This document shows positions 1-20,665 of a stretch of DNA of 64,000 bases, one piece after another. How positions within the stretch are numbered: position 1 is the first letter of the stretch; each line of letters begins with the position of its first letter. Source of the DNA: Petrosia ficiformis. Lineage: Eukaryota; Porifera; Demospongiae; Haplosclerida; Petrosiidae. The stretch is from the NCBI GenBank assembly GCA_947044365.1, contig OX345636.1, positions 21,492,548 through 21,556,547 on the forward strand. Direction: 5' to 3'. Position numbers and translations under genes: made by a program. The notes beneath the pieces are model-generated. The model ran no database searches and was not told the origin of the DNA. It was given only the letters and a program-made list of their open reading frames with translations.

Positions 1-2372
1 TCTTCTGTTCTATATAATACAAATAAGTGATTTTTATTTCTTCAAATTTTATTGCATTGCTGTATGTATAAAATATATATATTTTTTTCTATCAATGATA
101 TGAGATGTGAACCCCAAGATAGTAGTCCAAGGCCGAGGGCTGCTATATTGGGGTGAAAGTTCCTACAGGTACAGTACATCAAAGAACACTATAGCTTTAA
201 CAATTGCCTGAGTCCTGCATAAACTGTTATGTAACCCACATTATAACATATTCTATAGACATGAAAGGCACCTATAGCAATTAGTAATTGTTTGATCACT
301 ATACAGACACATATCTGATCTTATCTGTTCCAGTCTCTCTTCATTGGATTCCTATACACAATATCTCTTCTCAATTTACAATTCAATTGCTCATGTTCAG
401 CTGATACAATTTGTTATAAATTCATTATAGACAAACAGAAAGAATATTCAATCCAGATTTGATATAGTGCAAATTATCCTCTGTTGGTAGCTTTGAGTGC
501 ATATTAAGCCTATTGTAGTGCAAATTAAGCCAATTGTATGTAAAAGAAAACAGCATTTGGTATGGCTGTCAGGTAGTAAGTTCCTAAAAGACAAGAAGTC
601 ACAGATTTGTACTCCCACAAACGAGGTTCATTTAATTGAAGTATTCTACAAATAGTAATCCATGACTGTTTTTGTGTCTTGTATATATGCAGACCATTGC
701 AAAACTCAAAATTGAATATTAAAGAATATAATGATTAGATGCATTTTAACCTACAAATTGTTTGTATAAAAACACACTATACTAACCTGTAGATGTAACG
801 TAGATACTTAATGAGACCTACATGTATATTAAATATAACATGCATTTCTAAAACGTCCTCATAATTATAAGTTAATTGTGTTCCACACAGCCCCAGAAGA
901 TTTCACAGCAGACCAGATACAGGTGACGTTCCTTGCCAATGAAAACATGGCTTGTGCAACATTCACTATCATAGATGATACGATAGATGAAGTAGACGAA
1001 TCATTTGAGATATCATTCACTGTTCCACCTGATGTTACACCACCATCTACCAATCCAATGGTTACTATTATTGATGATGAGAGTAAGTTAATTGTGTTCA
1101 GTATCTTATTTGAAAAATACAACAAACTACTAACAGATAGCAGATAGCTCATAAAGTCACTAGTATATTGTATAGCCATTACTTCAACACTAACATTTGT
1201 TACTTGTTCCTTCACATTTCACTATATTTTGTTTAATTAATTAGGTTTAAGTGTCCTTTTCACTGAACAAACTTACTCTGGTGAAGAAGGAGGGGTAACT
1301 GAAGTGTGTCTTGTGCTAAACAATCAGCTTGATATGGAAACCTCTGTTACATTGTCAATCAGTAATTCTGTTACAGGATATGATGATGCAGAAAGTGAGT
1401 TTGATTATTGCATGAATAATAGTAAAGTAAAAGAATAAATGATTGAAAATACATTTTTTACTATCATTATATCACTTAGATGATGATTATTCTGGTGTGC
1501 TGACTGTCGTAACATTTGTACCTCCTAATCAGATGTCATGTTTTAATATCACATTCCCTGATGACACTGAATATGAATTTGACGAAGCAATAAAATTAAC
1601 AATTGATACTACTGGTAGTGGTTTAAATCCTGGTACTATTACTGAAGCTGATGTTATTATCACTGATGATGATAGTAAGATATAATTATATGAACATAAT
1701 AATAATATTTATAATTATACAGTTGTAGGGCATATACATGAATGCCTACACACACACAAATACACACACACACGCATTCAGCCACAGACTATTACTATTG
1801 TTACTTTTACATTCAGAACCACAAATCAGAGGTGATAATACGACAATATTTGAAAACAGAAGTCCAGTTCGTGTGTGTGTTGATTTAAGGGGAGCTACAC
1901 AGAGTACAAGCCAAGATTTAACAATCACATTTACTCCTCAATTGAAACTTTCAGCAACAAACCAAGCAACACGTAAGAATATGAAATTGTATTTTATAAT
2001 TCTTGAGTTTAGCTCCTTTATTCCTCACACCATCTAATTACATCTCTCACTTCATAATACAGTAACTAATGAATAGCTGATTTGATTAATTATGTTTGAC
2101 TGAAATTGCATTTTTCATTTCAGCTGATGAAGATTTTGATAGTACAGTGATGACAGAGGTAATACAACCTGGACAAACACAAGTTTGTGTGGATATTATT
2201 ATTGCAAATGACAGAGAAGTAGAAAGAGATGAAGAATTCTGTGTACAATTAAGTTCAGATAATAATGATATTGATTTTGGAAGTGAACCATGTCATATTT
2301 GTGTCACTATAGTAGACCCAACAACAGGTTTGTGAGTCTGTACTGTGTAGTCATGTATGATGTCATATAATT
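1..2372 (+). repeat. Intragenic segmental duplication, copy A
   Basis: This stretch is almost the same, base for base, as 7477-9828, across both exons and introns. The match begins at the first base of the window, so the true left edge may lie outside. It ends just past the exon that stops at 2327, after a shared intron start. Differences are scattered substitutions and small indels, such as the shorter CA tract in copy B. Intron identity implies a recent duplication or ongoing gene conversion. Bases 1-890 are intron by this reading and hold no gene I can see. Confidence 0.9.
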
Positions 2373-5300
2373 TACATCAGTATAATATGGAATTGATAGA
2401 GTGGTGGAAAATGTCCTTGAGGAATTTAGTACCAGCAAATGGTTGAAAAGTATCCCAAACTTTGTTATATATTGTTTAATTTGTTAGTGCACTTGTGTAT
2501 CTCTTGTATGAATCTCAGCGATTGTTTGTAATTCGCTCATCAAGTGTATGTTTTGTAGTATACCTTCAACTGCTCCTAATTGTAATAATTATGCTGAAAA
2601 GAGCCATCTTTATACTCAGAGTCCTAAACCACTTGTCATGTATATTAATGGTATCATCAGTTCATTTTACAACATATATAAGTAACCTTCTACCTGAAAG
2701 ATGAAACTAATTATGGCTGAATTTCTTTTCTTTTACAGTATGTCCTTTAATTGCTGATGTCATGTTGGTTGTTGATGGATCTCAGAGTATAATGCCTGAT
2801 AATTTTGATACTCTGATACAATTTGTTGTTAGAGTAACAAGACAATTTGATATTTCTCTTGAAGCAACTCGCATAGGTCTCGTACAGTTCAGTGATCGAA
2901 GTGACGTAGAAATTGGTTTGGGTACTATCACAGACGAGGGAGCATTGGAGACGGAAATTATGAATATCACGTACCAAAACGGTGGTGATACGTTTACAGG
3001 AGTAGCAATTCGACAAGCTACCGATCAATTGCTGAATTCACCACAAGCAAGAAATGTGTCGAAACTTATGTATTTGTTCACAGATGGACAACCTACTCGA
3101 AGAAATAATGCTGTTAGTGCTGGTGAAGAGGCACGTAATGAAAACATTACAATTACAGCTGTTGGAATAGCAATTACTGTTCAAGACGCTCTCAACATGA
3201 TAACAGGAAGTAGCGATAGAGTATTGCTAGTTGAAACCTTTAGTGAAGAACTATTGAATGATATTATAGATGATCTCACTACACAATCTTGTCCCAGTAT
3301 GTAATATACTACACACACGATACATATAATATTAAGAAGTGTACTTTGATATGTATGCAGCAAATGTGATATGTTATTACTACTGATCCAATTTGTGTAT
3401 GTCTCCATTGTAATTAATCATAATCATTAGTCATAATCTACACAGTACACTCCTGATGTTCATATTCTTAGTAAGGTAGTAATACTAAACTTCATAGGTA
3501 GATATGAATAATATTTTGACATTTTTTGTACAGCTGTTTTATGTGCATAGTTAAGTTGTATTTAAATTTCACAGTTGTTAAAATATTACAATTATTGGAG
3601 CCTAACAATAAAATATCATATATTCTATTTTATCCACAGCTGTGGAGATATCATTCACTCAAGCAGATGTTAGGGTTAATGAAGACAATGGCACAGTTTT
3701 TGTTTGTCTGGAGAAAGACAGGCCAACTGTTCTTGACATAGAATTACAAGTGACTGCAAGAGAACAGAATCCTTCAGATGCTATCTGTGAGTTTTCATGC
3801 TTGTTGATCACATGATTTATTACCTTTATGTATCCACATTTCCATAATTATATATCCATTATATATTAACTATTTATAATCTCTCCATCTACAATGTATA
3901 TTATACATTGTATTACATAAACATTTCATTGTATATATAGCACCCGGTGATTTTGATGCAGATACTATAAACATTACGTTTCCATCTGGACAAAACAGAA
4001 TATGTGTGGAGTTCAATATCACAGATGACCTCATAGCAAGAGAGTCCACAGAATCATTTGAAGCAGAGTTTCGAATTACTTCAGATAGTAGATTTGCAGT
4101 ACCTGGACAGACACGAATATCTACTGTTACTATCTTAGATGATGATGGTATGTTGAGGTTGAACAATGAATCATTATGAAGCAAGACTGTAGACATGGGC
4201 ATCCCTTCTCAGCTAGTATGGTCATCACTGCCTAAACATTAATTACATGTCCACAAAACATGTAATAGATATTGAATAGACAGCTATTGTATTATGTTTG
4301 GTGTGCCACTGTCTCAGGTTGTTTTCAGCTTTCTATAGGCAAGTAGAAAAGATGACTTTCATATTCAGGTTCTTGTAACCATCTTTGTTCTAATGGCAAG
4401 CTGTTTATTTTTTTTGCAGCTTCTGTTTGTTTCAATGTAGAAATAACTAGTACAAATTATAAACGGGTGCCGTTGGGACGGTACCCTCGCCTACGTGGCA
4501 AAGTAATACAAACTATAATTTTTTTTCTAAATATAATATGCCAATTATCATTGCTCGTTTCTATGATCATATAATAATGAGAATGTTTACTTCAGATTGT
4601 TTAGTTTATGTGTATAGAACATATTAAGTTATAAAACTGTACTGGCATGTTAGTTTTTATAATAATATTATAATAGTTATATAATATAATTATATTATAT
4701 ATATAATTATATATATATATAATTATATAAACTAACATGTCAGTACTTATTACTTTATAACTGAAAGATTTCAGTATGATTATACTAGTTTCGTCCTTGT
4801 CTATACGATAAGTCTTACATTTCAGTCTCTGTTTTATCTCAAAGAAGAAAAAAAGATCCTCAATTAGTCTTGTGAAATATTCCACAAAGAGAGCCTAGCA
4901 GGTCCTCAAAGCTGCTGACGACCTGACGTTCGAGTCACGTGCACAGCACATGACTTGACAAATTAAAATAGGCGGAGTTTGAAAGTAACGGAGAATGCTT
5001 GGAGCCAGTGCTCGATGTTGTAGCAACCAATACCCAAATTTTGTTTGCTTTTATGTAGTGCTTTGCTAGTGATAGTCATGATACAAGAGTAGTTATGTTT
5101 TGATGTGTCCAGATGCCTCCACGAGTCTTCTCAAGTCTGGAAACAGTAACCGTGAGTTATAAACATTGTGATAACTTTATAACCGAAAGGTTTTAGAAAA
5201 ATTCCTACGTTATTTTTTTCCTTGCATAATTTGAAGTCTACTAGTACCCCTTTTGAAATGTCAATGTTTTTATTTTTCCAGAAAAAATGCTAACAGACAC

Positions 5301-5946
5301 ACACACACACAGACAAAACGATTACCGTACCCTTCCGCCTACGTGGCGAGAAATATTCATACAAATTATTACTGATCATGTGACCTGTGGCCAATCAGAA
5401 TGCTGATAATACATCACATGATTGAACATTCAATCACTTATTGCACACTTTTGCGTACATTAAGTTAGTTATTGCACACTTTGCTCACCTGTACTAACGA
5501 AGCAACAGTGGAAGTTCACCAGATCATTAATAAATCACTTATAACACACTTAACAGTGCATTGTGTGTTTCAATGTAGCACTTTGGTGGTCAATAAAGGC
5601 CTAGTTTACAAAACGCACTCGCCTTCGGCTCGTACATTATGTAAACTCAACCTTTATTGAACCGCCCTCATGCTACATTTAAACACGTAATCACAGTAAA
5701 GTGTGTTATAACTATTACGTATTGTTATAATAATGTTATTTCTACACATAATAACTCATCACATTTTGTTTGTCATTTTAGAAGTGACAACTACTCCAAT
5801 GATAAACCCAGACACTGGAACTATTAATTATGTTGTTAATGAGAATGCTGGAGATGTGACTGTATGTTTGACGAAAGATCTTGTGACTGCTGAAGATTTC
5901 ATAGTGACATTTATAGCACGAGAGAAAACACCATCTGATGCATTAT
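891..5946 (+). CDS. Calx-beta / vWA ectodomain exons (5' part of large receptor gene)
   Basis: Nine exons are inferred from splice sites and homology: 891-1082, 1245-1394, 1480-1674, 1817-1972, 2124-2327, 2739-3296 (vWA), 3640-3786, 3941-4147 and 5782-5946. Each begins and ends in phase 1 and each length is a multiple of three. Except for vWA, they pair into Calx-beta domains: a first-half exon with a V-C-V/L-strand and a second-half exon ending in the acidic T-I-x-D-D-D/E turn. Calx-beta domains are extracellular or cytosolic beta-sandwiches that bind calcium through such acidic loops, known from Na/Ca exchangers, integrin beta4, the ADGRV1 receptor and sponge aggregation factors. The first exon is a second half, so the gene starts upstream of the window. 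The last exon is a first half and needs the exon at 8366 to complete its domain. Function in adhesion is inferred from the domains. Confidence 0.82.
2739..3296 (+). CDS. von Willebrand factor A domain exon
   Basis: A single 558-base exon encodes a whole vWA domain of about 186 residues. The metal-ion-dependent adhesion site looks intact: DGSQS after the first hydrophobic strand, the threonine in GGDTFTG, and the aspartate in YLFTDGQPT. vWA domains of this kind (collagen, matrilin, integrin type) bind ligands through a magnesium or manganese ion. The exon is phase 1 at both ends, begins with a short VCPLIADV lead and ends in a cysteine-containing CPS, so two cysteines may bridge the domain ends. 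It lies between Calx-beta exons of the same gene and has no counterpart in the second copy of the duplicated block. Confidence 0.9.
4148..5781. repeat. Intron holding fold-back and direct repeats
   Basis: No exon is evident here. Three structures stand out. Bases about 4627-4768 form an AT-rich hairpin whose arms share ACTAACATG with a TGTACTG-like tip. Two similar GC-rich motifs around ACCCTCGCCTACGTGGC occur near 4482-4500 and 5328-5348 in the same orientation, about 0.85 kb apart, like the ends of a small element. Bases about 5548-5692 form another hairpin with a CTCGCCTTCGGCTCG loop and arms reading into AATAAAGG and CCTTTATT. All are probably insertions in an intron of the Calx-beta gene. 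Confidence 0.55.
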
Positions 5947-7476
5947 GTAAGATTAGGGAAAATAGAATTATAAAATATTATATACAACATAACTATAATG
6001 AGATATTATATATATATATATATATAATTATATATGTATAGGTTATAACACCTTACGAGTGCTATATCAGATTTATAATCACTGAGCACGAAGCCGTAGG
6101 CCTGAGGGCAAGGTGATTATAATTTTGATATAGCACGAGTAGGCATGTTATAATTAATATATTTCACGAAAGACAAAAGTCTGATGCTTCTCCTACCTTT
6201 TTGTCAGTACTTTGGAGAAGGTAAGCGTTGTTTTCTTGTAGTCTGTTTCGACGGCAGGTTTTATATCTGACCACAGGGTGCTATATTTGATTTATAAACC
6301 TGTGGTTTACTTTGATGTTTCGCCGTATCGGCATATATATATATAATATATATATATATAATTATTTATTTCTATATCATTTTCAATATAATTATATATA
6401 ATTTTATGTGTACTATAATATAGTATTAGTATATATAATTAAATATAAATATATATAACTGTAATATGTTATATTATATATCTATTTATACTTTATACTG
6501 CCCATACCCTATTCTGACCAATCTACCACAGAAATGAGGGATATAACAGGTCTAGGTTTCCTTTGCATGTAGCAGTAAATTCAACCAATCAGATCAATTG
6601 ACATCACAGTTGTAATGCAGCACCTTGCTAAGCAACAATAATAGTGTCTGCAATGGAGAGTTATTTTTTGTGGCCTTCTAGATTCTTTATTTACTGAAAG
6701 TCGTTATTTCTCCTTGATTGATTATACTGAAATTGGCGGAGAGTAGATGCAGCAGCCTCGTTAGCAAAGAACACATTTGTGAAATAATTGAACAATGAAA
6801 ATATACCTAGGAGCTAATGCATGAAGGCTTGGACCAGCTTGTGATCTGATTGATAATAATGTGTTATATTCCTCAGGAAAGGAAAGTGCTTTCATAATGC
6901 CTTGTAAGGGGGCTTCAGGCTCTTCCCTTGGCACTTCCTTGGCTTCACTGAAGCACTTTCCTTTCCCACATGATGCAATGGATTGCTTAAAATGATATTT
7001 CTAAATGTGTCACAATATATATAATGTTCCCAAGATAGTAATAAAAAAATAAAATAAAGTATTCTAAACTATATAGTTATACCAGTTAATAGATTATGCA
7101 TCATTAAAATGGTGCAATCTCCTTGGTCAATTAGAAGGTTCTAAATGTCATACAATGAACAGAAACAAAGTTTGTTGTAAGGCTGGATCTGTTGAACTTT
7201 AGTAACTGAGAAAAACACTAAAGTGTTGGCATTGACTGCTGACTGCTGCCACTTGTAAAAACACTGTCCACATTAGTCATGAGACTGGTCTTCAGTGTTG
7301 CCCTCTACAAGACAAACACAATAAATTCAAAAAGAAATAATAGACAAAACATATAACTGTGCTTGTGTCGTAAAAAGCTGTAAAATTAACAGTACTGAAT
7401 TTAGGCAAGTCAGAGACTTCATACAAACTATTTTTTAATCTATTTCATAATACCATACCCACATAGTAGAAGCTTT
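5947..7476. repeat. Intron between duplicated blocks, with fold-back element
   Basis: This lies between the first-half Calx-beta exon ending at 5946 and the second copy of the duplicated block. About 6040-6330 contains a hairpin (GTGCTATATCAG against a matching TGATATAGCAC) followed by a segment with GACGGCAGGTTTTATATCTG and a run into TA repeats. The same segment is found in inverted orientation at 44685-44985, so it is a dispersed element. Bases 6520-7440 show no coding exon that I can support. Confidence 0.6.
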
Positions 7477-9828
7477 TCTTCTGTTCTATATAATACAAAT
7501 AAGTGATTTTTATTTCTTCAAATTTTATTGCATTGCTGTATGTATAATATATATATTTTTTTTTCTATCAATGATATGAGATGTGAACCCCAAGACAGTA
7601 GTCCAAGGCCGAGGGCTGCTATATTGGGGTGAAAGTTCCTACAGGTACAGTACATCAAAGAACACTATAGCTTTAACAATTGCCTGAGTCCTGCATAAAC
7701 TGTTATGTAACCCACATTATAACATATTCTATAGACATGAAAGGCACCTATAGCAATTAGTAATTGTTTGATCACTATACAGACACATATCTGATCTTAT
7801 CTGTTCCAGTCTCTCTTCATTGGATTCCTATACACAATATCTCTTCTCAATTTACAATTCAATTGCTCATGTTCAGCTGATACAATTTGTTATAAATTCA
7901 TTATAGACAAACAGAAAGAATATTCAATCCAGATTTGATATAGTGCAACTTATCCTCTGTTGGTAGCTTTGAGTGCATATTAAGCCTATTGTAGTACAAA
8001 TTAAGCCCATTGTATATAAAAGAAAACAAGATTTGGTATGGCTGTCAGGTAGTAAGTTCCAAAAAGACAAGAAGTCTACTCCCACAAATGAGGTTCATTT
8101 AATTGAAGTATTCTACAAATAGTAGTAATTAGAAATCCATGACTGTTTTTGTGTCTTGTAAAATTATATGCAGACCATTGCACAACTCAAAATTGAATGT
8201 TAAAGAATATAATGATTAGATACATTTTAACCTACAAATTGTTTGTATAAAAACACACTATGCTAACCTGTAGACGTAACATAGATACTTAATGAGACCT
8301 ATATTAAATATAACATGCATTTCTAAAACGTCCTAATAATTATAAGTTAATTGTGTTCCACACAGCCCCAGAAGATTTCACAGCAGACCAGATACAGGTG
8401 ACGTTCCTTGCCAATGGAAACATGGCTTGTGCAACATTTAGAATTACGGATGATATGATAGATGAAGAAGACGAATCATTTCAGATATTATTCACTGTTC
8501 CACCTGATGTTACACCACCATCTACCAATCCAATGGTTACTATTATTGATGATGAGAGTAAGTTAATTGTGTTCAGTATCTTATTTGAAAAATACAACAA
8601 ACTACTAGCAGATAGCTCATAAAGTCGCTAGTATATTGTATAGCCATTACTTCAACACTAACATTTGTTACTTGTTCCTTCACATTTCACTATATTTTGT
8701 TTAATTAATTAGGTTTAAGTGTCCGTTTCACTGAACAAACTTACTCTGGTGAAGAAGGAGGGGTAACTGAAGTGTGTCTTGTGCTAAACAATCAGCTTGA
8801 TATGGAAACCTCTGTTACATTGTCAATCAGTAATTCTGTTACAGGATATGATGATGCAGAAAGTGAGTTTCATTATTGCATGAATAATAGTAAAGTAAAA
8901 GAATAAATGATTGAAAATACATTTTTTACTGTCATTATATCACTTAGATGATGATTATTCTGGTGTGCTGACTGTCGTAACATTTGTACCTCCTAATCAG
9001 ATGTCATGTTTTAATATCACATTCCCTGATGACACTGAATATGAATTTGATGAAGCAATAAAATTAACAATTGATACTACTGGTAGTGGTTTAAATCCTG
9101 GTACTATTACTGAAGCTAATGTTATTATCACTGATGATGATAGTAAGATATAATTATATGAACATAATAATAATATTTATAATTATACAGTTGTAGGGCA
9201 TATACATGAATGCCTACACACACACATTTAGCCACAAACTATTATATACTATTGTTATTTTACATTCAGAACCACAAATCAGAGGTAATAATACAGAAAT
9301 ATTTGAAAACAGAAGTCCAGTTCGTGTGTGTGTTGATTTAAGGGGAGCTACACAGAGTACAAGCCAAGATTTAACAATCACATTTACTCCTCAATTGAAA
9401 CCTTCAGCAACAAACCAAGCAACACGTAAGAATATGAAATTGTATTTTATAATTCTTGAGTTTAGCTCCTTCATTCCTCACACCATCTAATTACATCTCT
9501 CACTTCATAATACAGTAACTAATGAATAGCTGTTTTGATTAATTATGTTTGACTGAAATTACATTTTTCATTTCAGCTGATGAAGATTTTGATAGTACAG
9601 TGATGACAGAGGTAATACAACCTGGACAAACACAAGTTTGTGTGGATATTATTATTGAAAATGACAGAGTAGTAGAGGGAGATGAAGAATTCTGTGTACA
9701 ATTAAGTTCAGATAATAATGATATTGATTTTGGAAGTGAACCATGTCATATTTGTGTCACTATAATGGACCCAATAGAAACAGGTTTGTGAGTCTGTACT
9801 GTGTTGTCAGGTATGATGTCATATATTT
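7477..9828 (+). repeat. Intragenic segmental duplication, copy B
   Basis: Copy of 1-2372, starting at the same TCTTCTGTTC and losing similarity shortly after the intron start at 9784. It carries the same five exons with the same splice sites. Downstream, where copy A has the vWA exon, copy B instead runs into unrelated sequence with a tRNA-like gene and retroelement remains. Exon differences between the copies concentrate in two patches (see findings), while introns are nearly unchanged. Confidence 0.9.
8366..9783 (+). CDS. Calx-beta exons, second copy (same receptor gene)
   Basis: Five exons, 8366-8557, 8713-8862, 8948-9142, 9270-9425 and 9577-9783, total 900 bases and encode two and a half Calx-beta domains. 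The first is a second-half exon. It joins in phase and in domain logic to the lone first-half exon at 5782-5946, giving a whole Calx-beta domain, which is the main reason to treat both blocks as one gene. The last exon ends in phase 1 with DPIETG. The next in-phase exon I can find is the immunoglobulin exon at 13809, over a 4 kb gap. Whether the transcript really crosses that gap is an inference. If it does not, this is the 3' part of a broken or separate gene. Confidence 0.78.
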
Positions 9829-10019
9829 TATTGTTATGTATGGGTCCAGTTCGGAGGAATAACCAATTACCGGTCGACCTCGAAAGAAGTTCTGACGGCA
9901 CATGCATAACCATTGGAGCATTATACTAGTGATAGCAACAAAAAGGGAGAGACACACACAGCAGAATTTGCCTGACCTAAGTAGTATACACTGTATATGA
10001 AATGCTCTTCCTCAACCTG

Positions 10020-10092
10020 GCTCCAGTAGCTCAGATGATAGAGCATCTGACTAGTAATCAGAAGGTCTTGGGTTCAAATCCCAGCTGGTCCA
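10020..10092 (+). tRNA. tRNA-Thr(AGT)-like gene, possibly pseudogene
   Basis: The 73-base cloverleaf can be laid out: acceptor GCTCCAG, D stem GCTC/GAGC, anticodon stem TCTGA/TCAGA with loop CTAGTAA giving anticodon AGT, five-base variable loop, T stem TTGGG/CCCAG with loop TTCAAAT, and discriminator A. Internal promoter boxes A (TAGCTCAGATG) and B (GGTTCAAATCC) are good, and a run of six T follows at 10095-10100 as a Pol III stop. The acceptor stem has two mismatches (positions 2-71 and 3-70), so it may be a decayed copy or the head of a SINE. No SINE tail follows. Confidence 0.62.
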
Positions 10093-10136
10093 GATTTTTT
10101 CTGGACATGTGTGTCTCTCTTTATCTTATCATATAG

Positions 10137-11262
10137 TCATACTATAACTGTAACTAAACTTATTGGTCAATATTGTCATACTAAAACAATACTAGGTCAT
10201 TCATGTTCACTTTAACCTCGAAAAATCTTCATAGCTTTAGTTTGGATGGACCAACAATCTTTTATCTTCACCATTTTCAGTGGCGGATCTAGGGGGGTTT
10301 CTTTGGTTTCCGTGGAAACCCCCTTTCAAATTTTAAAACTCCGTGAGCCACGCCCACGAACGTGTTGTAATAACAAACAGTAGTATATAGCTTCTCATAG
10401 AAGATAGTAAAGATGATAAGTAGATAACCAACTATATACCTACAATTATACTACATGTGTACTTCAGTTATGATGTTGCTAGTCTGCAAAAGTCTGATGT
10501 AACTGAATCTGAATCAGATGATTGCCAATAACAGTAGTGGTCAGGACTGGAGTGAAGTCTGGTTTCTTCTTACACACAGTCTGGTCATAGATATTATAAT
10601 ATCTATGGTCTGGTTGTGAATCTGATGCTTGTGTTTCATCAAACATTTAGTATAATAAATCATGATCGCTAGTGCTAAGTTATTAATTATAGTAAGTTTG
10701 CATACCTTTCCTAACTGTCCCGATATGACATCAGGCTACTTAGCGCCCGAAAGAGGAAGTTATAATTAAAAAATCAGTGACCACATCCCTCATAAATAAT
10801 TAATGAACAAAAACTTTCGCGTGCTGCGTGCACTATTTATTTTAGAAACCTCCTTCTTAAATTTCTAGATCTTAAATTTCTGGAATTGCTAATAATTTAA
10901 TAATATAGTAACATACATGTAGCGAAATAACCAATCTAGAACGTACATGTATGTTAAGTCAAATACTTTGCATAACACTTACTATTATTCGTTTAGCTGT
11001 TTGTTCACTCGTATCCTTCTTTTATCATGCATCCATTGAGCCATGCATATCTGTTTGAAATTTTTGCAAATCAACTAAAGCAAATTAAACAAAATTATAA
11101 CAGTGATCACCACCTTAATTAAACCTTTCAGTTGTAAGCCTATAAAATATATAGGAATACTATAGCTGTAACTAAAATAATTATTATTGGTCATTATTGT
11201 CATACAAAAACAATACTAGGTCATTTACGTTCACTTTGACCTCAAAAAGATATTCATGTACA
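10137..11262. repeat. Non-coding stretch bounded by two diverged direct repeats
   Basis: Bases about 10137-10240 and 11158-11262 are diverged direct copies sharing the core CAATACTAGGTCATT and flanking TAACTAAA and TTCACTTT blocks. Between them lies a repeat end with a short hairpin (GGGGGTTTC against GAAACCCCC, 10277-10315) next to GTGGCGGATCTAGG, a sequence typical of dispersed-repeat ends. No coding exon was found. Confidence 0.5.
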
Positions 11263-11450
11263 GACAAAGTTAGCTAGATTCTATGCCTAATTGAACAGCT
11301 ATAATTATGTAGACCCAATTAGCATAATTATATAGGCTCGTCAATGCATGAACAGTCTATATATACACCATATAGTACAGTTATGCACTCACCTAGCCTA
11401 TACATCTTTTGCATCTGCCCTCTATACCCATACTCTTTGTAACCATCTAT

Positions 11451-12900
11451 CTAACAGGTGCACGATCTGTGTACACAGTGAATTGGTGACCCCAGAGCTA
11501 TGTTCTGTAGTGCTTGATTACCCACACTACCCCCCCTCTGGGCCTCTAGCTTGATAATTTCGCCATTAGCATCAATATGCAGGACGAATTGCTTTGTAAA
11601 GCCTGGGGAAGATAAAACAGGCGGTGATGTAAGCAACTTCTTCATGTGTTCAAATGCAACACAACACTCATCCATCCACTGGAACTTAGCATTAGACACA
11701 ACAATAAATACATTGGACTGGCTATTTGTAAAAATCCAGGAAAACGTACCTGCAAGTCCCGTAATCTTTTGAACAGGTTTCACATCTGTCAGTACAGGAA
11801 AACGTTTTGCAACCTCAAGCCTGTCAGGGTCTGGAGAAACTCTTTTTTTTTTTGACACAATCTGACCAAGATTACACATTTCTGGGCAACCCAGAGAACA
11901 CTTATCTGTTTGATAGTCATTGAAACACTTCACTCCATGATCACAGTGCTCCTTAACCGACCTGGAGAAAATTGAAATTTCTTGTATAAACACATTACAC
12001 ATGCGACGTAAACCTGATAATATTTGCTACATCAGTATTTGAAATTTTGCCGAAAGGCATGACCTGAAATTCATAGAGTCCACAATGGAAGCAGTTTTCT
12101 CTCAGTAGTCAGGGTTGAATGATGATCAGATGTTTCAACAACATGTTCCACACATGTAATATCCTCCTTGATCATCTTCCAACGAAAACACACCATGATA
12201 TTCAAGTGCACAGACTATCACCTTCTCCAATTTTTGGTCTTGATCGGTGACTAAAAGAGATGTCAATTTACGTTGTCGCTGTGCTTCACTCAAATTCTTC
12301 TTAGGTATACTTTTCACCTAGTAAACTTCTTCTGGAGGCACCTCAGCGCCCTCATCAACATCTGAATTCACAATCAACTTATCTTCTTTCTCAACTACCT
12401 GACGCACATTACCTATAGAAACATCTTGATCTACGTGACGACCTTGCCGGTACTATATTTCGAACTGGAATCAACACATATCCAACTTTAGGATCTACAT
12501 GTAAATCATGTAGTTCCAACTCTGATGATAGTCTTTTGTTCCTTTATAGTCCTGTCAACACAACACCACACTGTCCTGGAACACGTTCAGTATGAACCAA
12601 CCATACAAGAGCATCACCAATAGAATCCTCCACCCGGAGTCTTGTTGAATCCTCCATGGATTTCTACTCCACCACACACAGTGACAACATCTAGGCATGA
12701 GATCACATTGGGATCTACACTTTCAAAGCTTTTTTTGCTAGACTATTCTTATCTTGTTTAACTTTCGATTTTAATTCACTTAACAACGCCTTCAGTTTCG
12801 TCTTGATTTTTAGTTGCCCAACACATGGTCTCATAAATCCATTACAATGCTCTTCTATCCTTCTCGATGAGACCTCCAAATGAATGTAACGCCATTTTCT
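11451..12900 (-). pseudogene. Ty3/gypsy retrotransposon pol relic
   Basis: Read on the minus strand from about 12900 to 11451, broken frames match a Metaviridae-type polyprotein. In order they are a protease-side segment with VPGQCGVVLTGL (near 12545-12660), a connector with SEAQRQRK and EYHGVFSLEDDQGG (12135-12317), a fragment around VMPFG near 12045-12060, then the end of reverse transcriptase and start of RNase H in one 183-codon frame (11451-12002) with FPVLTDVKP, KKLLTSPPVLSSPGF and LHIDANGE. Most of the RT palm is deleted, and there are stops and frame changes, so it is inactive. It lies in the putative 4 kb intron before the Ig exons. No LTR pair was identified. Confidence 0.85.
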
Positions 12901-13681
12901 GTCGATGTCTGATTTTAAGTATGTATATCAATACTAACTCTCTCCTTCAATAACAAGTTATATGTACAATGACTTCAATCAACTCAAAAGAAAAATGTGG
13001 AGACCATGTGTTCTTGTAACCACATTTTATCTTTACAAACATAATTAAGAATGCAACTATACATTACCATTCCGTGGACAATATCCAGGTCATAGTAATT
13101 GAACAGCTCCACCTACACTCGCTTTAACACCTACTCCTGGGATAACTGTCAAAAAAAACCTTTGAATTTTTACATTACATCTTTTATTTTTATCTGTACA
13201 CCTTTAAACCTTTCATTTATACCTTTCACTTTTATAGTACACCTTTTATTTTTATCCGTACACCATTGTACTATAACATAATGTTATAAACTGTACTTGA
13301 CACATTTGTTTTCTCTATAAAATAAACGACAAACTGCCGACTGAACATGACAAAAAAGGTCGAAACAGTTTTATTGGTTTCTTCATAATATATCTTTGGG
13401 CAAAGTGTTAATCCAAGTCAACCCACAATACTGTTTACAAAAAAGAAAGATGAAATGTTCATTACAAATTATGAAAGTACATCAATATTTATACAGGGTA
13501 GAATAGACATTGTGCGAAGAAACATTTAGTAATACAGTAATATCAGGCTCTCATGATAATATACCTCACATAGACCTTATTCAGGAAAATAATAGAAGGG
13601 GCACAAAACAGAACAAGTTTTTAGTCTGGATTGAAAATGTACTGGCTATGAATCTCATTGTGAGATATAATTTATTGTAAT

Positions 13682-13730
<49 letters not shown>

Positions 13731-13808
13731 TATATATAATATACATATATATATATAATGTAATGTCTCTTAAATTACCACTTATAATTTGTCTTACTTT
13801 TCCTGTAG
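12901..13808. other. Non-coding stretch before the Ig exons
   Basis: No gene seen. Bases about 13160-13265 contain a short tandem of pyrimidine-rich units around CCTTTTATTTTTAT. Bases 13688-13760 are mostly TA dinucleotides. A polypyrimidine tract and TAG just before 13809 make the acceptor of the first Ig exon. If the adhesion GPCR were a separate gene, its promoter and first exon would have to lie here, but I see no convincing signal-peptide exon. Confidence 0.5.
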
Positions 13809-16800
13809 AACTTTCTCCTATTATTATTCCAACTTATGGGAAGTTTACACTAGGGGTTACAAGAAACAACTCCATTGACATCTCAGTTAATATAACAGCT
13901 ATACCTCCAGTAAACCCATCTGCAATCCAGTGGTACTTTAACTCCATGCTGATTGAAGAACACAATAAATCCAACAAATACATTTTTTGTTGTGGCAAAC
14001 AATCATTGACTATCTTAGATGTACAACACAGTGATGCTGGAATATACGAAATTACAGTAGGATCAAGTTCCATAAATATTACGTTGAATGTCTATGGTAT
14101 GTTCTTCAATGTGTAATGCAATTATATATAATTATAATATTCCTTGTTTCCAATAATGTAGTTGAAGCTGCATTGCTGAATAATAATGGCATAGTGACCA
14201 CAAAAGAGACTGGAGAAATTGTTACCTTTAATTGTACTGCTGATGGTATTAACACACCCAAAATAATGTGGAGGAGAAATGGACAGTTTCTTTTCAATAC
14301 TACAAGACTTAAAATAATCTTTTTCAATAATAAAAAAGGATTTCGTCCTATACCAGGAGCTCAACAGATCACTAGTTCACTAATTATCAGTGATTTGAAA
14401 GATAGTGACAGTGGTACCTACTCTTGTACTACTGATAATGAAGCTAGGACTCCAGTGTCGTTGAGTTCCCCCTTTGTATTAACAGTATCATGTAATGCCA
14501 TGAAGATATTTATTAATATGAATCTTACAATTTTTGTTACTATAGCACTGCCTCCAACCAATTACTGTTCAAATTCACCATGCCAGAATGGAAGATGTCA
14601 TAGTTTAAGTGATAACTATTTGTGCACTTGTGATGAAGGTTATACAGGGCACAAATGTCAACACAGTTGAGTGGATAAAAACTAGAAGATTGTTTAATGT
14701 TCATAGTTTGTTCATTTCAACAGAAGTAATAGTCTATATACCACCCACAATTGAAATCCATCCAGTAGACACCATAGGTGAACTGTATCAGTCTATCAGT
14801 CTCACATGTACAGCAAGTGGCAACCCAATACCTAATATCATATGGTACAAAGACAATATCTCTATACCAAACACTAACAGTAACACTTCTGTGTTAATAT
14901 TCAATGAGCTGAGCTTAAATGATAGAGGATTTTACCATTGTGAAGCCAAAAGTATTATAAATGGAAAGAATGAATCAGATGCGTCGGATATAATTGTTCT
15001 CAATATCAAAGGTTAGTTTGTCAATCAGAATGTAGATATCATCAAATCCTGTTTCATACCTGACAGGTATTGTTCAGTATGAAGCTATTATTCAATTACA
15101 TTCACAATTTCAAATCACTGACCTCATCCATCAGGTATATAAAAATAACACTTAACAAATAGTTATATTGTTCTATATCACCATTGTAAACAGATTATTG
15201 AGGACCTCTCAGGTACTAGTGATCCAACAAATGATGTGACTTTTTTCCTGGTGGGAATACTGAATCAGGAAAAAATTGAGTGGGTGTCACTAATTAATTA
15301 TATATTATGTATTTTTCAGGTTCTAGTGGAAGAGAGGTGCTGCACTGCTCTATGTAACGCAATTTCCTTTTGATGTTGTAAATAAATGCGATTGAATCGA
15401 TATGCTTTGATTTTTATGTCAGCACAACTGTGTTGAAGAGTGGCTAGCTGAAACATTGGTATTATGTATGGCCTGTTAATGGTAGTTGATATACATATAT
15501 TTACCCGCGTTTTAATTATTACATTGAGGACATACCTTGAATGTATGTATAAAAAATAACTAAATGCCATGTTATCTATCACATTTAGTACTATTATTCT
15601 ATATTAGGAGACCCTAATATCAATTAGGATTATCATCTTTTGTTATTTGACTCTTCTCATGCACTTTTGTTGCTCATTTCTCATACTGACTTCATCTACC
15701 TTTTTAGCTTAGAAAATTCATTAGAAATGATTCCAATTGCAATAACCTTAATAACTGAGGAAAAGGGAAGTGAAGAGTTATTAGAATTTGTTGAAAATGA
15801 AATGCAAAGGCTTGAAACTCAGTTGAACTATAATATCAGTATTGATGATGTTGATCGATTTGGTAGGAAAATGTATGAAATGAATTGAAATAACTTTTTA
15901 AAAATTTGTTTTTCTTATTATCAGATGGCTGTCGCTCTAAAATTACGGAAATTCCTTCCTATCAATCTGGGAATGCAAATTTAACAATATCTATTTCATG
16001 GCCAGAAAGTAACGTTGGTGAACTTGCTAAAGTTCAGTGTTCTTGTGGTAATGTAGCATTAGGGGGGAGGGTTTTTTTAGCTACAAGATACTGTGGAGGT
16101 GATTTCACAAATGGAGGTCGATGGACAAATCCTGATATAACACCTTGTAACTTCAGTGATGTATCTCGTGAAATATGTCAACTTGCGAAGGTATCTGTGT
16201 GCATTTAGATTTTTATAGAGGTGCTAATTTACAAAATGTTAAACTTCTGTAGTTAGCAACAAATCAAAGGATAGAACAACTGCAAGATATCACTGACAAT
16301 GGAAATGATTTGGGATCAACAGATGTTACTGTTTCAGTTGCTGTACTGCTTACAACTACAGAGGAAGTATCTGGAAATCTATCTGTAAGTTATGAGTTAT
16401 ATAATACAGCATATATATAATCGTTCAAAAATTAATTTTCACAGCTGACAAGTGATTTTTTGAATGTGGTGGATAATATAATAAATATAGGTGAGGATAC
16501 ATTACAGGAGAGTCAAGAATCTTCCAATACCTCAGCCAAGTGAGGATTTTTCATGATAATTCACTAGCACTTATTATCTTCTAATAGGATACTTGAAGCT
16601 ATTGGATCTATAGTTGGAGATATTCCTGTTGGAAATAATTCAGAACCTGTGGTTATTACCCGAAGAACATTTGCACTTTCAGTACAGCAAGTGGTTCTTG
16701 ATCAATTCATGGAGATAGGTCAAAATTTCAGTGCTAATCTTGGAGATTTTTCAAACATAAACATAAATGAGAGTATTGACTCTAGCGATTTGCAATTTGG

Positions 16801-19122
16801 AACCACCACACAGGCAACGGCTTCTGTTAGACTTCCTAGTAACTTATTCATGGCAATTCCTAATGTCACTAGTAACACTAGAATCACACATGCAGTCTTC
16901 CTTACTGATGGTTTATTCTTAAGGAGAAATAGTAATGACCTGGAGGTTGGAGGTATTATCATCTCAGCACGTGTTGTAGGATATAGCTCAATACAAAGTC
17001 TAGATCCACCTGTCTCCATAAGCTTCCTCAAAAACCCGGTATATATAACAATGATAGATTTAATCCTTGTTGTAAATCTGATATTTTCATATAGATGATC
17101 AATGGTTCAGAACCTCTCTGCTCTTTTTGGAACCCCATTTTAGATGGTAAAACATATCTGCAAAGTAACATCAATTACTACTAGTGTATTATTTCATTAT
17201 AGATGGATATGGAGACTGGTCATCTGATGGATGCAAAATTGATGAAAGTTATAATGATACTCAAGATTATGTTACATGTTTCTGCAATCATTTGACTAGT
17301 TTTTCTATACTCCTGGTTGGTCAAAGACACACATCAACTGATTTCATTACAATGATTTGTCTTTTTGCTTATAACATTACAGGACGTGTCTCCAACAATT
17401 GAACCAACAGAAGAAACACCATTGGCTCTTGCACTGAATGCTGTGACATACATTGGAATAATCATATCAATTTTCTGTCTACTCATTACCATCATATCAT
17501 ATCTAAGTAGCAAGTATGTTAATTATTTATAACTTTTTTTTGATGTGATATTCATTCTTTACTATAGGAAACTACGTACCTCAGAAAATGGTCAACTACT
17601 CATTAATTTATGTTTAGCTTTAATTGGTCTATATATAACTTTCATATTTGCCATTCACAGCACACCAGTAATTGGTTTATGTGCATTTGTAGCTGCTACT
17701 CTGCAGTATTTTTTTCTTGTGAGCTTTATGATTATGGCATCTGAGGCTATTAGCCTTTATATGAAGCTAGTTGTTGTTCTTGGAAGAAATATACCTCACT
17801 TTGTTATGAAAGCTACTCTTATTTCTTGGGGTAAGTAATATTGCATATAAACATAGTTATTGTAATTTTGCTTAACGCAGTTATGTGTGTGAAAAACAAT
17901 TCTTTATTGTCTTTTAGTGACACCAATATTTATTGTCCTCTTCTGCTTTGCTCCAAATTATGAAAACTATGTCAGTGACCATTTGTAAGTTTTTAATCAA
18001 TAAATATGAACTCTAAGTATGTCAAATATTTAACCGCTTTGAACAACTAGGGACAAATAGCTTTGGATTATTTATTCTTCCTGTGTTTACTTTTTTCTAT
18101 TCTTTGTTTTTACTCTTCTATCTCCTTTTATAATTTATTTCACATTAAGTGTCTGATCCCAAATTTAAGTCTATATATATTGTTACTTGTACACTTCATT
18201 AGTATTGAAGTATAGTGATTTAATTTTGTACTCAGAGGTCTGTATTTCATATATAAGAACAGGAAAAAGTATGTAATTATTTCATTCATGTAAAAATCTT
18301 ATTATGTTATATATTTATAATTAGATATCTACAATTATATCTACTCTTTCCCTTTATGACGAATAATTCTATTTTTCAATTCCATTCTGTAGTTGTCGTG
18401 CTTTTAATATACCATACTATATTGGAATGGTGGTTCCTTTCTTGATTATTTACATTTTCAACTGGATGGTATTTTTCATTATAATTGTCTCACTGTTTCG
18501 TAAAACTTGGACATCAAAGAATTTCAAGAAAAAACAAGAAAACATTTCCTTTGTTCGTCAACAGCTTGTCATTGTCACAGTTCTGTCCATCTTTTTCGGT
18601 TTAGGATGGGGCATTGGATTAATTGCTACTCAGGATATTTACGATAATAAATTTGTTCGTGACATGGTTGCTGCTCTGTTTGTGATTATCACTGCTTTTC
18701 ATGGATTATTTCTGTTCATTATGCAATGCCTTCGTTCAAAAGATGTTCGAAATGTTTGGAAACAATTGTTTTATGGGAAGTTTAGTGATCAATTTCAGAT
18801 GTATTATTCACACGCCAGAAGCTCAAAAAATACAGATACTTTGAGAAAGAAAGTCAGTACATCCACTCTCCCTCTAAAGGAAGTAATTGACAAGAAAATG
18901 GCAAAGGAAGAAGCAGGAATGGAGGAATCTACTTTTAATGAAACCACTATAGATTTGGATACTAATGGTGAAGAACATGAGAAACAGGAAATGAAGAAGG
19001 AATTGTCGAATGCAGAAGTAAAGATGGAAGAATCTTCTTTCACTATAACATTAGAATGTGTAGACGATGATGGAGAGAATGAAGTTGATGTGAATCCCAC
19101 TGATCCAAAAACTGATCAGTGA
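13809..19122 (+). CDS. Adhesion GPCR: Ig-Ig-EGF-Ig-HRM-GAIN/GPS-7TM
   Basis: Sixteen exons are inferred: 13809-14096 (Ig), 14162-14491 (Ig), 14546-14665 (EGF), 14724-15011 (Ig), 15713-15862, 15925-16190 (hormone-receptor-like), 16253-16384, 16445-16539, 16588-17038 and 17095-17146 (GAIN), 17203-17315 (GPS), 17383-17513, 17568-17830, 17918-17984, 18236-18268 and 18393-19122 (7TM and tail). With one base carried in from the previous exon they total 1170 codons. The EGF shows six cysteines (YCSNSPCQNGRC..CTCDEGYTGHKC). The GPS reads CFCNHLTSFSILL, with the HL/T autoproteolysis site between 17294 and 17295. Helix 3 has YFFLVSFMIMASEAISLY and helix 7 FHGLFLFIMQCLRSKDVR, both typical of class B2 receptors. 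The cytosolic tail has two similar acidic segments starting MEES. The first Ig exon starts in phase 1 with no signal peptide, so more exons lie upstream, possibly the Calx-beta exons. Confidence 0.9.
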
Positions 19123-19549: not shown

Positions 19550-19645
19550 ATATAATAGAGTAATTTTATTGAGCCTTAATAACACGGTAGAGTTTTTTTA
19601 AATTATCAATAACAATAATAAAATTCTTATTAATAAAAACTGAAT

Positions 19646-19670
19646 GTTTCGACCCGAAGGTCTTCTTCAG
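19646..19670 (-). ncRNA. Hammerhead-ribozyme-like core, left arm
   Basis: On the minus strand the core CTGAAGA, a four-pair stem GACC/GGTC capped by TTCG, and GAAAC occur in order. It equals the right-arm motif except that the base after GAAAC is A where the right arm has G, the change expected from CpG decay. Hammerhead cores are known from Penelope-like terminal repeats; cleavage here is untested. Confidence 0.5.
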
Positions 19671-20545
19671 CAGTATACAAAAAAATCAAAACCAAATAGC
19701 CTATTTATATACGGACAGATAACAAGTGATGACATCATGACAGTACAAAGAGTGAGAACAATGATGGTACGGGAATACAAAGGGTAGTACAGAAAATAAC
19801 AAGGTTTGACAATGATGGTACAAGAAAAGTAAACTATGACATGAAGGTTTAGATTAAGTCTGTGATGGTAGAATAGAGTCCCAAGACGGATTAATGTGTA
19901 CTCCAGGGTCTGTATTGATGGTGTCAGAAGTACTTTTTATTAAGATAGCTTCTCTGATCTTTCTTCTTCTCTAATTTTCTTCAACTGCTAAAACTTCACA
20001 CTTGTCCCATAGAATACTGTGACCTGTAGAATGAACATGTACTGATATAGCATTGTTATGATCTCCGATCTTGATAGCTCTCTTGTGTTCATAGGTGAAA
20101 CCGGAAGGACTTTCAAGATCAGGATGAGTGAACACAAGAGAGCTATCAAGATCGGAGATCATAACAATGCTATATCAGTACATGTTCATTCTACAGGTCA
20201 CAGTATTCTATGGGACAAGTGTGAAGTTTTAGCAGTTGAAGAAAATTGGAGAAGAAAGATCAGAGAAGCTATCTTAATAAAAAGTACTTCTGACACCATC
20301 AATACAGACCCTGGAGTACACATTAATCCGTCTTGGGACTCTATTCTACCATCACAGACTTAATCTAAACCTTCATGTCATAGTTTACTTTTCTTGTACC
20401 ATCATTGTCAAACCTTGTTATTTTCTGTACTACCCTTTGTATTCCCGTACCATCATTGTTCTCACTCTTTGTACTGTCATGATGTCATCACTTGTTATCT
20501 GTCCGTATATAAATAGGCTATTTGGTTTTGTTTTTTTGTATACTG

Positions 20546-20570
20546 CTGAAGAAGACCTTCGGGTCGAAAC
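20546..20570 (+). ncRNA. Hammerhead-ribozyme-like core, right arm
   Basis: CTGAAGA, stem GACC/GGTC with a TTCG tetraloop, and GAAAC are followed by GTTC. CTGANGA and GAAA are the invariant boxes of hammerhead ribozymes, and AACGTT would be a minimal stem III of the kind that works as a dimer. One extra A lies between CTGAAGA and the stem. The placement just downstream of the GIY-YIG stop region fits Penelope-like elements. Confidence 0.55.
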
Positions 20571-20665
20571 GTTCAGTTTTTATTAATAATAATTTTATTA
20601 TTGTTATTGATAATTTAAAAAACTCTACCGTGTTATTAAGGCTCAATAAAATTACTCTATTATAT

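Follow-up and report, generated by a model that had tools for sequence, protein, structure and literature searches.

A Calx-beta/vWA exon array and an Ig/EGF adhesion GPCR probably form one fused receptor gene in the sponge Petrosia ficiformis

Does the array of Calx-beta and vWA exons found in a 64,000-nucleotide stretch of the Petrosia ficiformis genome (the window, on contig C1) belong to the Ig/EGF adhesion GPCR encoded downstream of it, or do two genes lie next to each other? The first-pass annotation had proposed a single hybrid receptor, and exon order in paralogues, the gaps before the Ig exons and the domain chains of Amphimedon proteins supported this proposal. Judging from sequence comparisons, array and GPCR are likely (probability roughly 0.85) to be parts of one fused adhesion GPCR at the cell surface, which would be encoded by a single message spanning all exons; this estimate jointly covers a gene extending from C1:21470110 to 21511669 (~41.5 kb), with the window exons as its 3' part.

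The model of the window gene (31 exons, 891–19122) encodes 2168 residues followed by a stop codon, with GT–AG introns, matching phases and no internal stops, in line with the more than 2100 residues predicted earlier. It was extended from 29 exons by adding two short exons (15067–15134 and 15194–15279) and shifting one exon start to 15708; the Pfam domain scores are those of the first, 29-exon model. The exons of the model are real: all 14 array exons (891–9783) and all four Ig/EGF exons (13809–15011) are open and bounded by AG and GT, and the phase 1 noted at both ends of the Calx-beta, vWA, Ig and EGF exons was found in 18/18. Their order is more than chance, because it recurs in paralogues and because the Calx-beta, vWA and 7tm_2 matches of a genome-wide search are interspersed along C1 20.4–21.7 Mb. 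The lone half-exon at 5782–5946 is completed by 8366–8557, and paralogues B, C, D and G have the same split pair. As had also been noted, the last Calx-beta donor (phase 1) fits the Ig exon at 13809; taken alone, this phase match at 9783/13809 is weak evidence, with a chance probability that we estimate at about 1/3. Pfam matched Calx-beta in seven stretches (204 bits), Ig_3 in three, GPS (54 bits, cleavage letters CNHL/T kept) and 7tm_2 (86 bits, cut-off 20.6). The 7tm_2 match and the predicted GAIN/GPS with its cleavage motif place the protein among the adhesion GPCRs (class B2), and the GAIN region aligns with ADGRG6; that a large adhesion ectodomain sits on the same chain, as in this class, is probable from gene structure and relatives. 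The EGF and HRM labels both lie below the Pfam cut-off, and an NCBIfam scan of the receptor core gave no match.

Table 1. Features of the predicted receptor gene in the window.
Feature	Position	Strand	Basis
Calx-beta, second half (first half before the window, about -1607)	891..1082	+	Pfam, phase 1-1
Calx-beta, exons 1245-1394 and 1480-1674	1245..1674	+	Pfam
Calx-beta, exons 1817-1972 and 2124-2327	1817..2327	+	Pfam
vWA, one exon; DGSQS, T and D letters present, which we take to be the metal-site motif	2739..3296	+	Pfam 117 bits
Calx-beta, exons 3640-3786 and 3941-4147	3640..4147	+	Pfam
Calx-beta, first half	5782..5946	+	Exon model, split pair in paralogues
Calx-beta, second half completing 5782; opens third, truncated copy of the 7.4 kb unit	8366..8557	+	
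Two Calx-beta, exons 8713-8862, 8948-9142, 9270-9425 and 9577-9783; last donor phase 1	8713..9783	+	
Predicted junction intron, array to Ig exons; contains tRNA-Thr gene	9784..13808	+	
Ig domains 1 and 2, exons 13809-14096 and 14162-14491	13809..14491	+	Pfam
EGF-like exon	14546..14665	+	21.3 bits, cut-off 21.5
Ig domain 3	14724..15011	+	Pfam
Linker, exons 15067-15134, 15194-15279 and 15708-15862	15067..15862	+	Comparison with Amphimedon P0001
Hormone-receptor-like (HRM) exon, below Pfam cut-off	15925..16190	+	20.9 bits, cut-off 26.2
GAIN region and GPS, exons 16253-16384, 16445-16539, 16588-17038, 17095-17146 and 17203-17315	16253..17315	+	
7TM and cytoplasmic tail, exons 17383-17513, 17568-17830, 17918-17984 and 18393-19122 (stop)	17383..19122	+	
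7.4 kb tandem unit, part; 95% identical to 7477-9830	1..2374	+	

The window opens mid-gene, and 891 is not the gene start. A signal-peptide exon followed by an IgGFc-binding exon lies 22.4 kb upstream of the window, and the gene probably starts there, giving the domain order signal peptide, IgGFc-binding, Calx-beta/vWA array, Ig-Ig-EGF-Ig, weak HRM, GAIN/GPS and 7TM. The signal-peptide and IgGFc-binding part lies outside the window and was thus invisible to the first-pass annotation. The 5' array was modelled in part and contains a truncated Calx exon at 21486212; a codon-position filter for upstream exons was dropped, as it returned mostly small open frames and missed the IgGFc exon, and a second filter in this 5' array returned one exon that was already known. 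Inside the array, a recent tandem duplication of ~7.4 kb was recognised. An assembly artefact could still account for this unit, but the Petrosia genome note gives PacBio HiFi reads and a QV of 62.8 (PMC12648040), and the two window copies (1–2374 and 7477–9830) differ by 5%.

The window gene (A) lies with B, C and D within 272 kb, while G is located 12.5 Mb away. In all five, the array is followed by the Ig/EGF/GAIN/7TM part in a single orientation; that four further genes, including the distant G, share this arrangement with A supports the fusion. The gap before the first Ig exon measures 4025 (A), 1790 (B), 6081 (C), 1779 (D) and 1751 bp (G), and the last Calx domain is of type CBc in A and C, CBb in B and D and CBa in G; its donor has phase 1 in all but D, where a frameshift alters it. 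The region contains six signal-peptide exons, all with an IgGFc match after them, and the IgGFc exon of A, B and C begins and ends in phase 1. Among the matches listed upstream of 33 related 7TM cores, the Calx/vWA/IgGFc matches share the strand of the core in 43/43 cases, in favour of the fusion. Against it, IgGFc, Calx and vWA all occur among these matches upstream of no more than five of the 33 cores, and for G no signal peptide was found in the 2.3 kb before its IgGFc exon.

Order and strand would also be kept if two neighbouring genes had been co-duplicated, namely one for a secreted, aggregation-factor-like IgGFc/Calx-beta/vWA protein ending after 9783 and one for an Ig/EGF adhesion GPCR starting in the gap. 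If the last Calx exon is read on without splicing, a stop codon follows within two codons, so that a secreted end is possible, and the gap of A contains four AATAAA (crude expectation 5) and three ATTAAA motifs; among the matches listed, IgGFc/Calx clusters without a 7tm_2 match exist and an IgGFc match is missing upstream of 24 of the 33 cores. A signal-peptide start exon between 9784 and 13808, named beforehand as the finding that would speak against a fusion, does have two candidates in the gap of A, but no candidate recurs in all four gaps searched (A 2, B 1, C 2 and D 1 candidates), in a search that recovered the real signal-peptide exon in 6/6 copies; this lack of a common start exon supports the fusion. 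Similarity of the G gap to those of A–D is patchy, falls in several frames and on both strands and is not coding-like, and gaps can be as short as 1.75 kb. Fusion is further supported by Amphimedon predicted proteins that carry these domains in one chain (P0030 and P0029), against which it may be held that these models are predictions, possibly misjoined, and that P0001, which has the closest core, has Ig/EGF domains alone upstream. On balance, we consider two separate genes improbable. Somewhat unlikely, yet clearly less so, is that the locus would give rise to both a secreted array and the full receptor by alternative ends or splicing, which overlaps with the fused-receptor reading and does not exclude it: all window array exons (14/14) are symmetric (1-1) and hence skippable, a stop follows the last donor, and P0029 lacks the Ig part present in P0030, although P0029 may be a model fault.

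A decaying copy, with an array free of selection and a locus yielding no full receptor, would be in line with an ectodomain dN/dS of ~1 among A–D (0.62–1.47 for the IgGFc, Calx, vWA and Ig blocks, compatible with relaxed constraint) and with the state of several copies: B is broken, with stop codons in one Calx exon and in the final 7TM exon and the frame disrupted in vWA and HRM, D carries a Calx fragment and a frameshifted last Calx exon, E and F are degenerate, and A carries the truncated Calx exon. Against this, A and C are free of stops in the exons matched, apart from a single stop of A that lies past the IgGFc donor, and G has none in the exons compared. When the number of A–C changes was placed randomly on the 1119 upstream codons of A, a mean of 5.9 stops resulted (P(none) 0.003), and half the changes still gave 2.9 (P(none) 0.05). 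Moreover, dN/dS between A and G was below 1 in five of six blocks (IgGFc 0.68, Calx 0.79, Ig/EGF 0.46, HRM/GAIN/GPS 0.52, 7TM 0.55; vWA 1.15). Decay of the window gene appears hardly probable.

A comparable chain is the Amphimedon queenslandica predicted protein LOC100634318 (P0030; 3207 residues), in which IgGFc-binding, Calx-beta, vWA, Ig, GPS and 7TM follow in the same order on one chain, with EGF and HRM below the cut-off as in the Petrosia gene. It differs by a second IgGFc domain, a C-terminal kinase and two Ig stretches (Pfam) instead of three, and its core is 42% identical to the Petrosia core. P0029, 99% identical to P0030 over 59%, probably represents another model of that locus; IgGFc, Calx-beta, GPS and 7TM are combined with a kinase in both predicted proteins, one of which also has vWA and Ig. 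The nearest core is that of the Amphimedon 'hemicentin-1-like' receptor P0001 (47% identical between Ig1 and the tail), whose ectodomain, unlike that of the Petrosia gene, is an Ig/EGF array without Calx-beta, vWA or IgGFc match. P0030 fits the description of the sponge GPCR-tyrosine kinases, 7TM receptors of sponges, in PMC12716839, whereas tblastn with the P0030 kinase gave no match in the Petrosia stretches covered, which were the 272 kb around A–D and 25 kb of G (ending 59 bases past the last 7TM exon). The term 'IgGFc' is absent from the main text of that paper, and the legend of Figure 1 of a Halichondria study names IgGFc-binding, Calx-beta, VWA, HormR, GPS and TyrKc among receptor domains, be they in one GPCR or in several (PMC8242945). 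No text describing the present architecture was found in the open-licence literature.

Among solved structures, GAIN and 7TM matched ADGRG6 and ADGRG2 best; these have other ectodomains than the Petrosia receptor. ADGRV1 (VLGR1) combines Calx-beta repeats with a GPS and 7TM, and to our knowledge lacks vWA, Ig, EGF and IgGFc. Its Calx-beta array upstream of GPS/7TM is likewise present here; the suggested sponge-specific relative of ADGRV1 found no support, given that the window exons have no laminin-G/EPTP match (Pfam), that the closest solved sequences are ADGRG6 and ADGRG2 and that the nearest relatives are sponge receptors in a tree containing no ADGRV sequence. This tree comprised 18 of 46 proteins and five Petrosia cores. 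An AU test disfavoured grouping the Calx-bearing cores in one clade (p 0.013, for a group picked by architecture before the tree, after pairwise identities pointing the same way), suggesting that ectodomain and 7TM may evolve separately. Sponge aggregation factors have Calx-beta arrays in clustered genes, as does the Petrosia gene, but they are secreted, contain a Wreath domain and lack the 7TM that the Petrosia gene has.

The Petrosia receptor genes are probably a young tandem family with rapidly changing outer parts, and the fused receptor a variant of an already known receptor kind. Such a receptor would reach the surface and cut itself at the GPS (HL/T letters), and its long N-terminal fragment might bind matrix, neighbouring cells or microbes; a ligand or pull could then expose the tethered agonist TSFSILLDVS, which would activate the 7TM and through it a G protein. 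Symmetric phase-1 exons would permit gain, loss and exchange of domains with the frame intact, and unequal exchange between tandem copies could keep altering the ectodomain; repeat numbers do differ between cluster copies. More tentatively, and with the odds rather against it, the family may consist of hypervariable recognition receptors with a conserved 7TM end, on which the ectodomains would be rebuilt through unequal exchange between symmetric domain exons and would move from one receptor core to another, a pattern to be expected if they recognise self and non-self or microbes. How sponges recognise self and sense microbes is genetically an open question, for which the locus offers a candidate receptor with an obvious signalling end that bears Calx-beta, vWA and IgGFc modules within a repeat-variable cluster. 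Expression and polymorphism work can start from named loci: B and D are broken, and A, C and G show no breaks in the exons examined, bar the stop in A beyond the IgGFc donor.

The window covers C1:21492548-21556547 (contig OX345636.1) in the 191.2-Mb genome of the demosponge Petrosia ficiformis. The part of the receptor gene A inside it was modelled as 31 exons; the introns are GT-AG, exon phases agree, and the frame contains no premature stop. It codes for 2168 residues plus a stop, in line with the more than 2100 residues that the first-pass annotation had expected within the window. The array, Ig and EGF exons listed there were recovered, and all 18 start and end in phase 1 as had been claimed; two further exons and a corrected start of the next exon, absent from that list, were found by comparison with an Amphimedon queenslandica receptor. 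Calx-beta (seven stretches), VWA, Ig (three stretches), GPS and 7tm_2 domains scored above the Pfam cut-off, HRM and EGF under it, and the vWA domain retains the letters of a metal-site motif.

Positions of features in and around gene A (window positions unless prefixed by contig)
Feature	Position	Strand	Remarks
Gene A	891-19122 (part inside window)		31 exons
Calx-beta/vWA array	891-9783 (part inside window)
Junction intron of A	9784-13808		between array and Ig1 exon
tRNA-Thr (AGT) gene	10020-10092	+	inside junction intron
New exon start of A	15708
Long inverted repeat	19550-20665		just 3' of A; arms 96% identical
Signal-peptide exon of A	C1:21470110		about 22.4 kb upstream of window; then IgGFc-binding domain exon
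Paralogue F, signal peptide	25128		F starts within window
Paralogue F, IgGFc exon	26677-28164		148 bits against PF17517
Paralogue F, Calx exons	33838-34875
Family 7TM fragments	C1:21558962-21560283; C1:21600256-21601444		Ig-to-GPS part absent from vicinity; appear to be decayed copies
Tandem array	C1:21615760-21620906		in 5' portion of gene B; repeat spacing about 214 bp
IgGFc and Calx-beta clusters	C5:3.64-3.76 Mb; C10:1.54-1.58 Mb

The 5' start of A lies outside the window, probably at the signal-peptide exon listed above. Within a joined stretch of 272.5 kb, six signal-peptide exons of this type were found (each E 3.1e-10 or better), each followed by one of six IgGFc matches, that of the degenerate copy E being broken; in A and in the neighbouring paralogues B and C, the IgGFc exon both starts and ends in phase 1. 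Two more signal-peptide matches, at E 0.25 and 0.35, are probably chance hits. The 7TM pieces of F, another degenerate copy, lie past the window end and contain stops.

The simplest reading is one fused gene, a single hybrid receptor joining the Calx-beta/vWA array to an Ig/EGF adhesion GPCR as first proposed (probability about 0.85). In A, B, C and D, the array is followed by Ig1-Ig2-EGF-Ig3-HRM-GAIN-GPS-7TM, all on one strand, across gaps of 4025, 1790, 6081 and 1779 bp, respectively, whose introns are mutually alignable in part. The junction had been regarded as the weak point, at which the receptor part might have a start exon of its own: a search for an ATG, a hydrophobic stretch and a phase-1 donor returned 2, 1, 2 and 1 candidates in these gaps, one of them common to B and D, whose gap introns are 94% identical, and none common to all four, while the same search found the real signal-peptide exon in 6/6 copies. 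In A, B, C and the distant paralogue G, the donor of the last Calx-beta exon has phase 1; in D it is altered by a frameshift in that exon.

Gene G, 12.5 Mb away on the opposite strand, is compact, with IgGFc, three Calx-beta and one vWA followed by the same Ig-to-7TM series. Exon identity to the query sequences is 57-94%, with one partial match at 35%; the queries came from gene A, except those for IgGFc and for the first half of Calx, which were taken from B. Its gap of 1751 bp resembles those of A-D in patches, in several frames and on both strands, and the 2.3 kb upstream of its IgGFc exon yielded no signal peptide. Among 33 related cores (≥69% identity over one 7TM exon), the matches listed upstream (within 45 kb or up to the next core, so that some may belong to neighbours) included Calx at at least eight, vWA at at least five and IgGFc at at least nine, with all three at at least five (A, B, C, D and G); all 43 were on the strand of their core. 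Calx matches came from the 150 of 287 candidates that were scored, so that absence of Calx at a core is not inferable. Calx-beta counts were 13, 10, 13 and 13 in A-D (second-half matches, weak and truncated ones included) and 3 in G. The clusters on C5 and C10 showed no 7tm_2 among the matches listed (150 of 171 candidates scored) and are perhaps another gene type made from the same modules.

The domain order recurs in a predicted protein of another sponge. Amphimedon P0030, a predicted single chain of 3207 residues, has a hydrophobic start and, above cut-off, two IgGFc stretches (the first 34% identical to the Petrosia IgGFc exon), three Calx-beta, VWA, two Ig, GPS, 7TM and kinase domains, with EGF and HRM under it. 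Of 11 matches to P0030 among the candidates scored (those sharing most words), only P0030 and P0029, probably a second model of the same locus, combine these domains; the predicted P0029 has no VWA or Ig match. P0030 ends in a kinase, which fits the sponge GPCR-tyrosine kinases of PMC12716839; in Petrosia, its kinase had no match in the 272-kb region or in the 25 kb of G. Because of this predicted relative, and because a figure legend in a Halichondria paper (PMC8242945) lists the same domain names among those of receptors, the architecture is a variation on the adhesion GPCR, not a separate kind of receptor. By analogy with adhesion GPCR biology, the receptor would be cut at the GPS, the long N-terminal fragment would bind something outside the cell, and TSFSILLDVS may be the tethered agonist.

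Stops were found in one of 35 exon matches of A, past the IgGFc donor, and in none of 35 of C; in B, a Calx exon and the final 7TM exon contain stops, and the reading frame is broken in vWA and in HRM. Among A-D, dN/dS was 0.62-1.47 for IgGFc, Calx, vWA and Ig/EGF, 0.48-1.00 for HRM/GAIN/GPS, and 0.14 (A-C) and 0.40 (A-D) for 7TM plus tail, A-B being undefined (no silent and two replacement changes). Between A and G it was 0.68 for IgGFc, 0.79 for Calx, 1.15 for vWA, 0.46 for Ig/EGF, 0.52 for HRM/GAIN/GPS and 0.55 for 7TM, which is thus not the most constrained block over this longer time. When the A-C changes were placed at random, the 1119 upstream codons of A acquired about 5.9 stops (probability of none 0.003, or 0.05 if the number of changes is halved) and the 948 downstream codons 4.2 (0.016 and 0.11); A-C is a selected pair, and its changes had been counted over a smaller set of aligned codons than the one on which they were distributed.

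In a 23-row tree, the five Petrosia cores formed one group (100/100) adjoining a second that consists of Amphimedon P0001, P0027 and P0029/P0030 (100/99); support for the node uniting the two was 85/84. A constraint grouping the Calx-bearing cores together was disfavoured (p = 0.0132); the ectodomain is either old and was then lost or replaced in some cores, or has moved from one core to another. Among solved structures, ADGRG6 and ADGRG2 were the closest.
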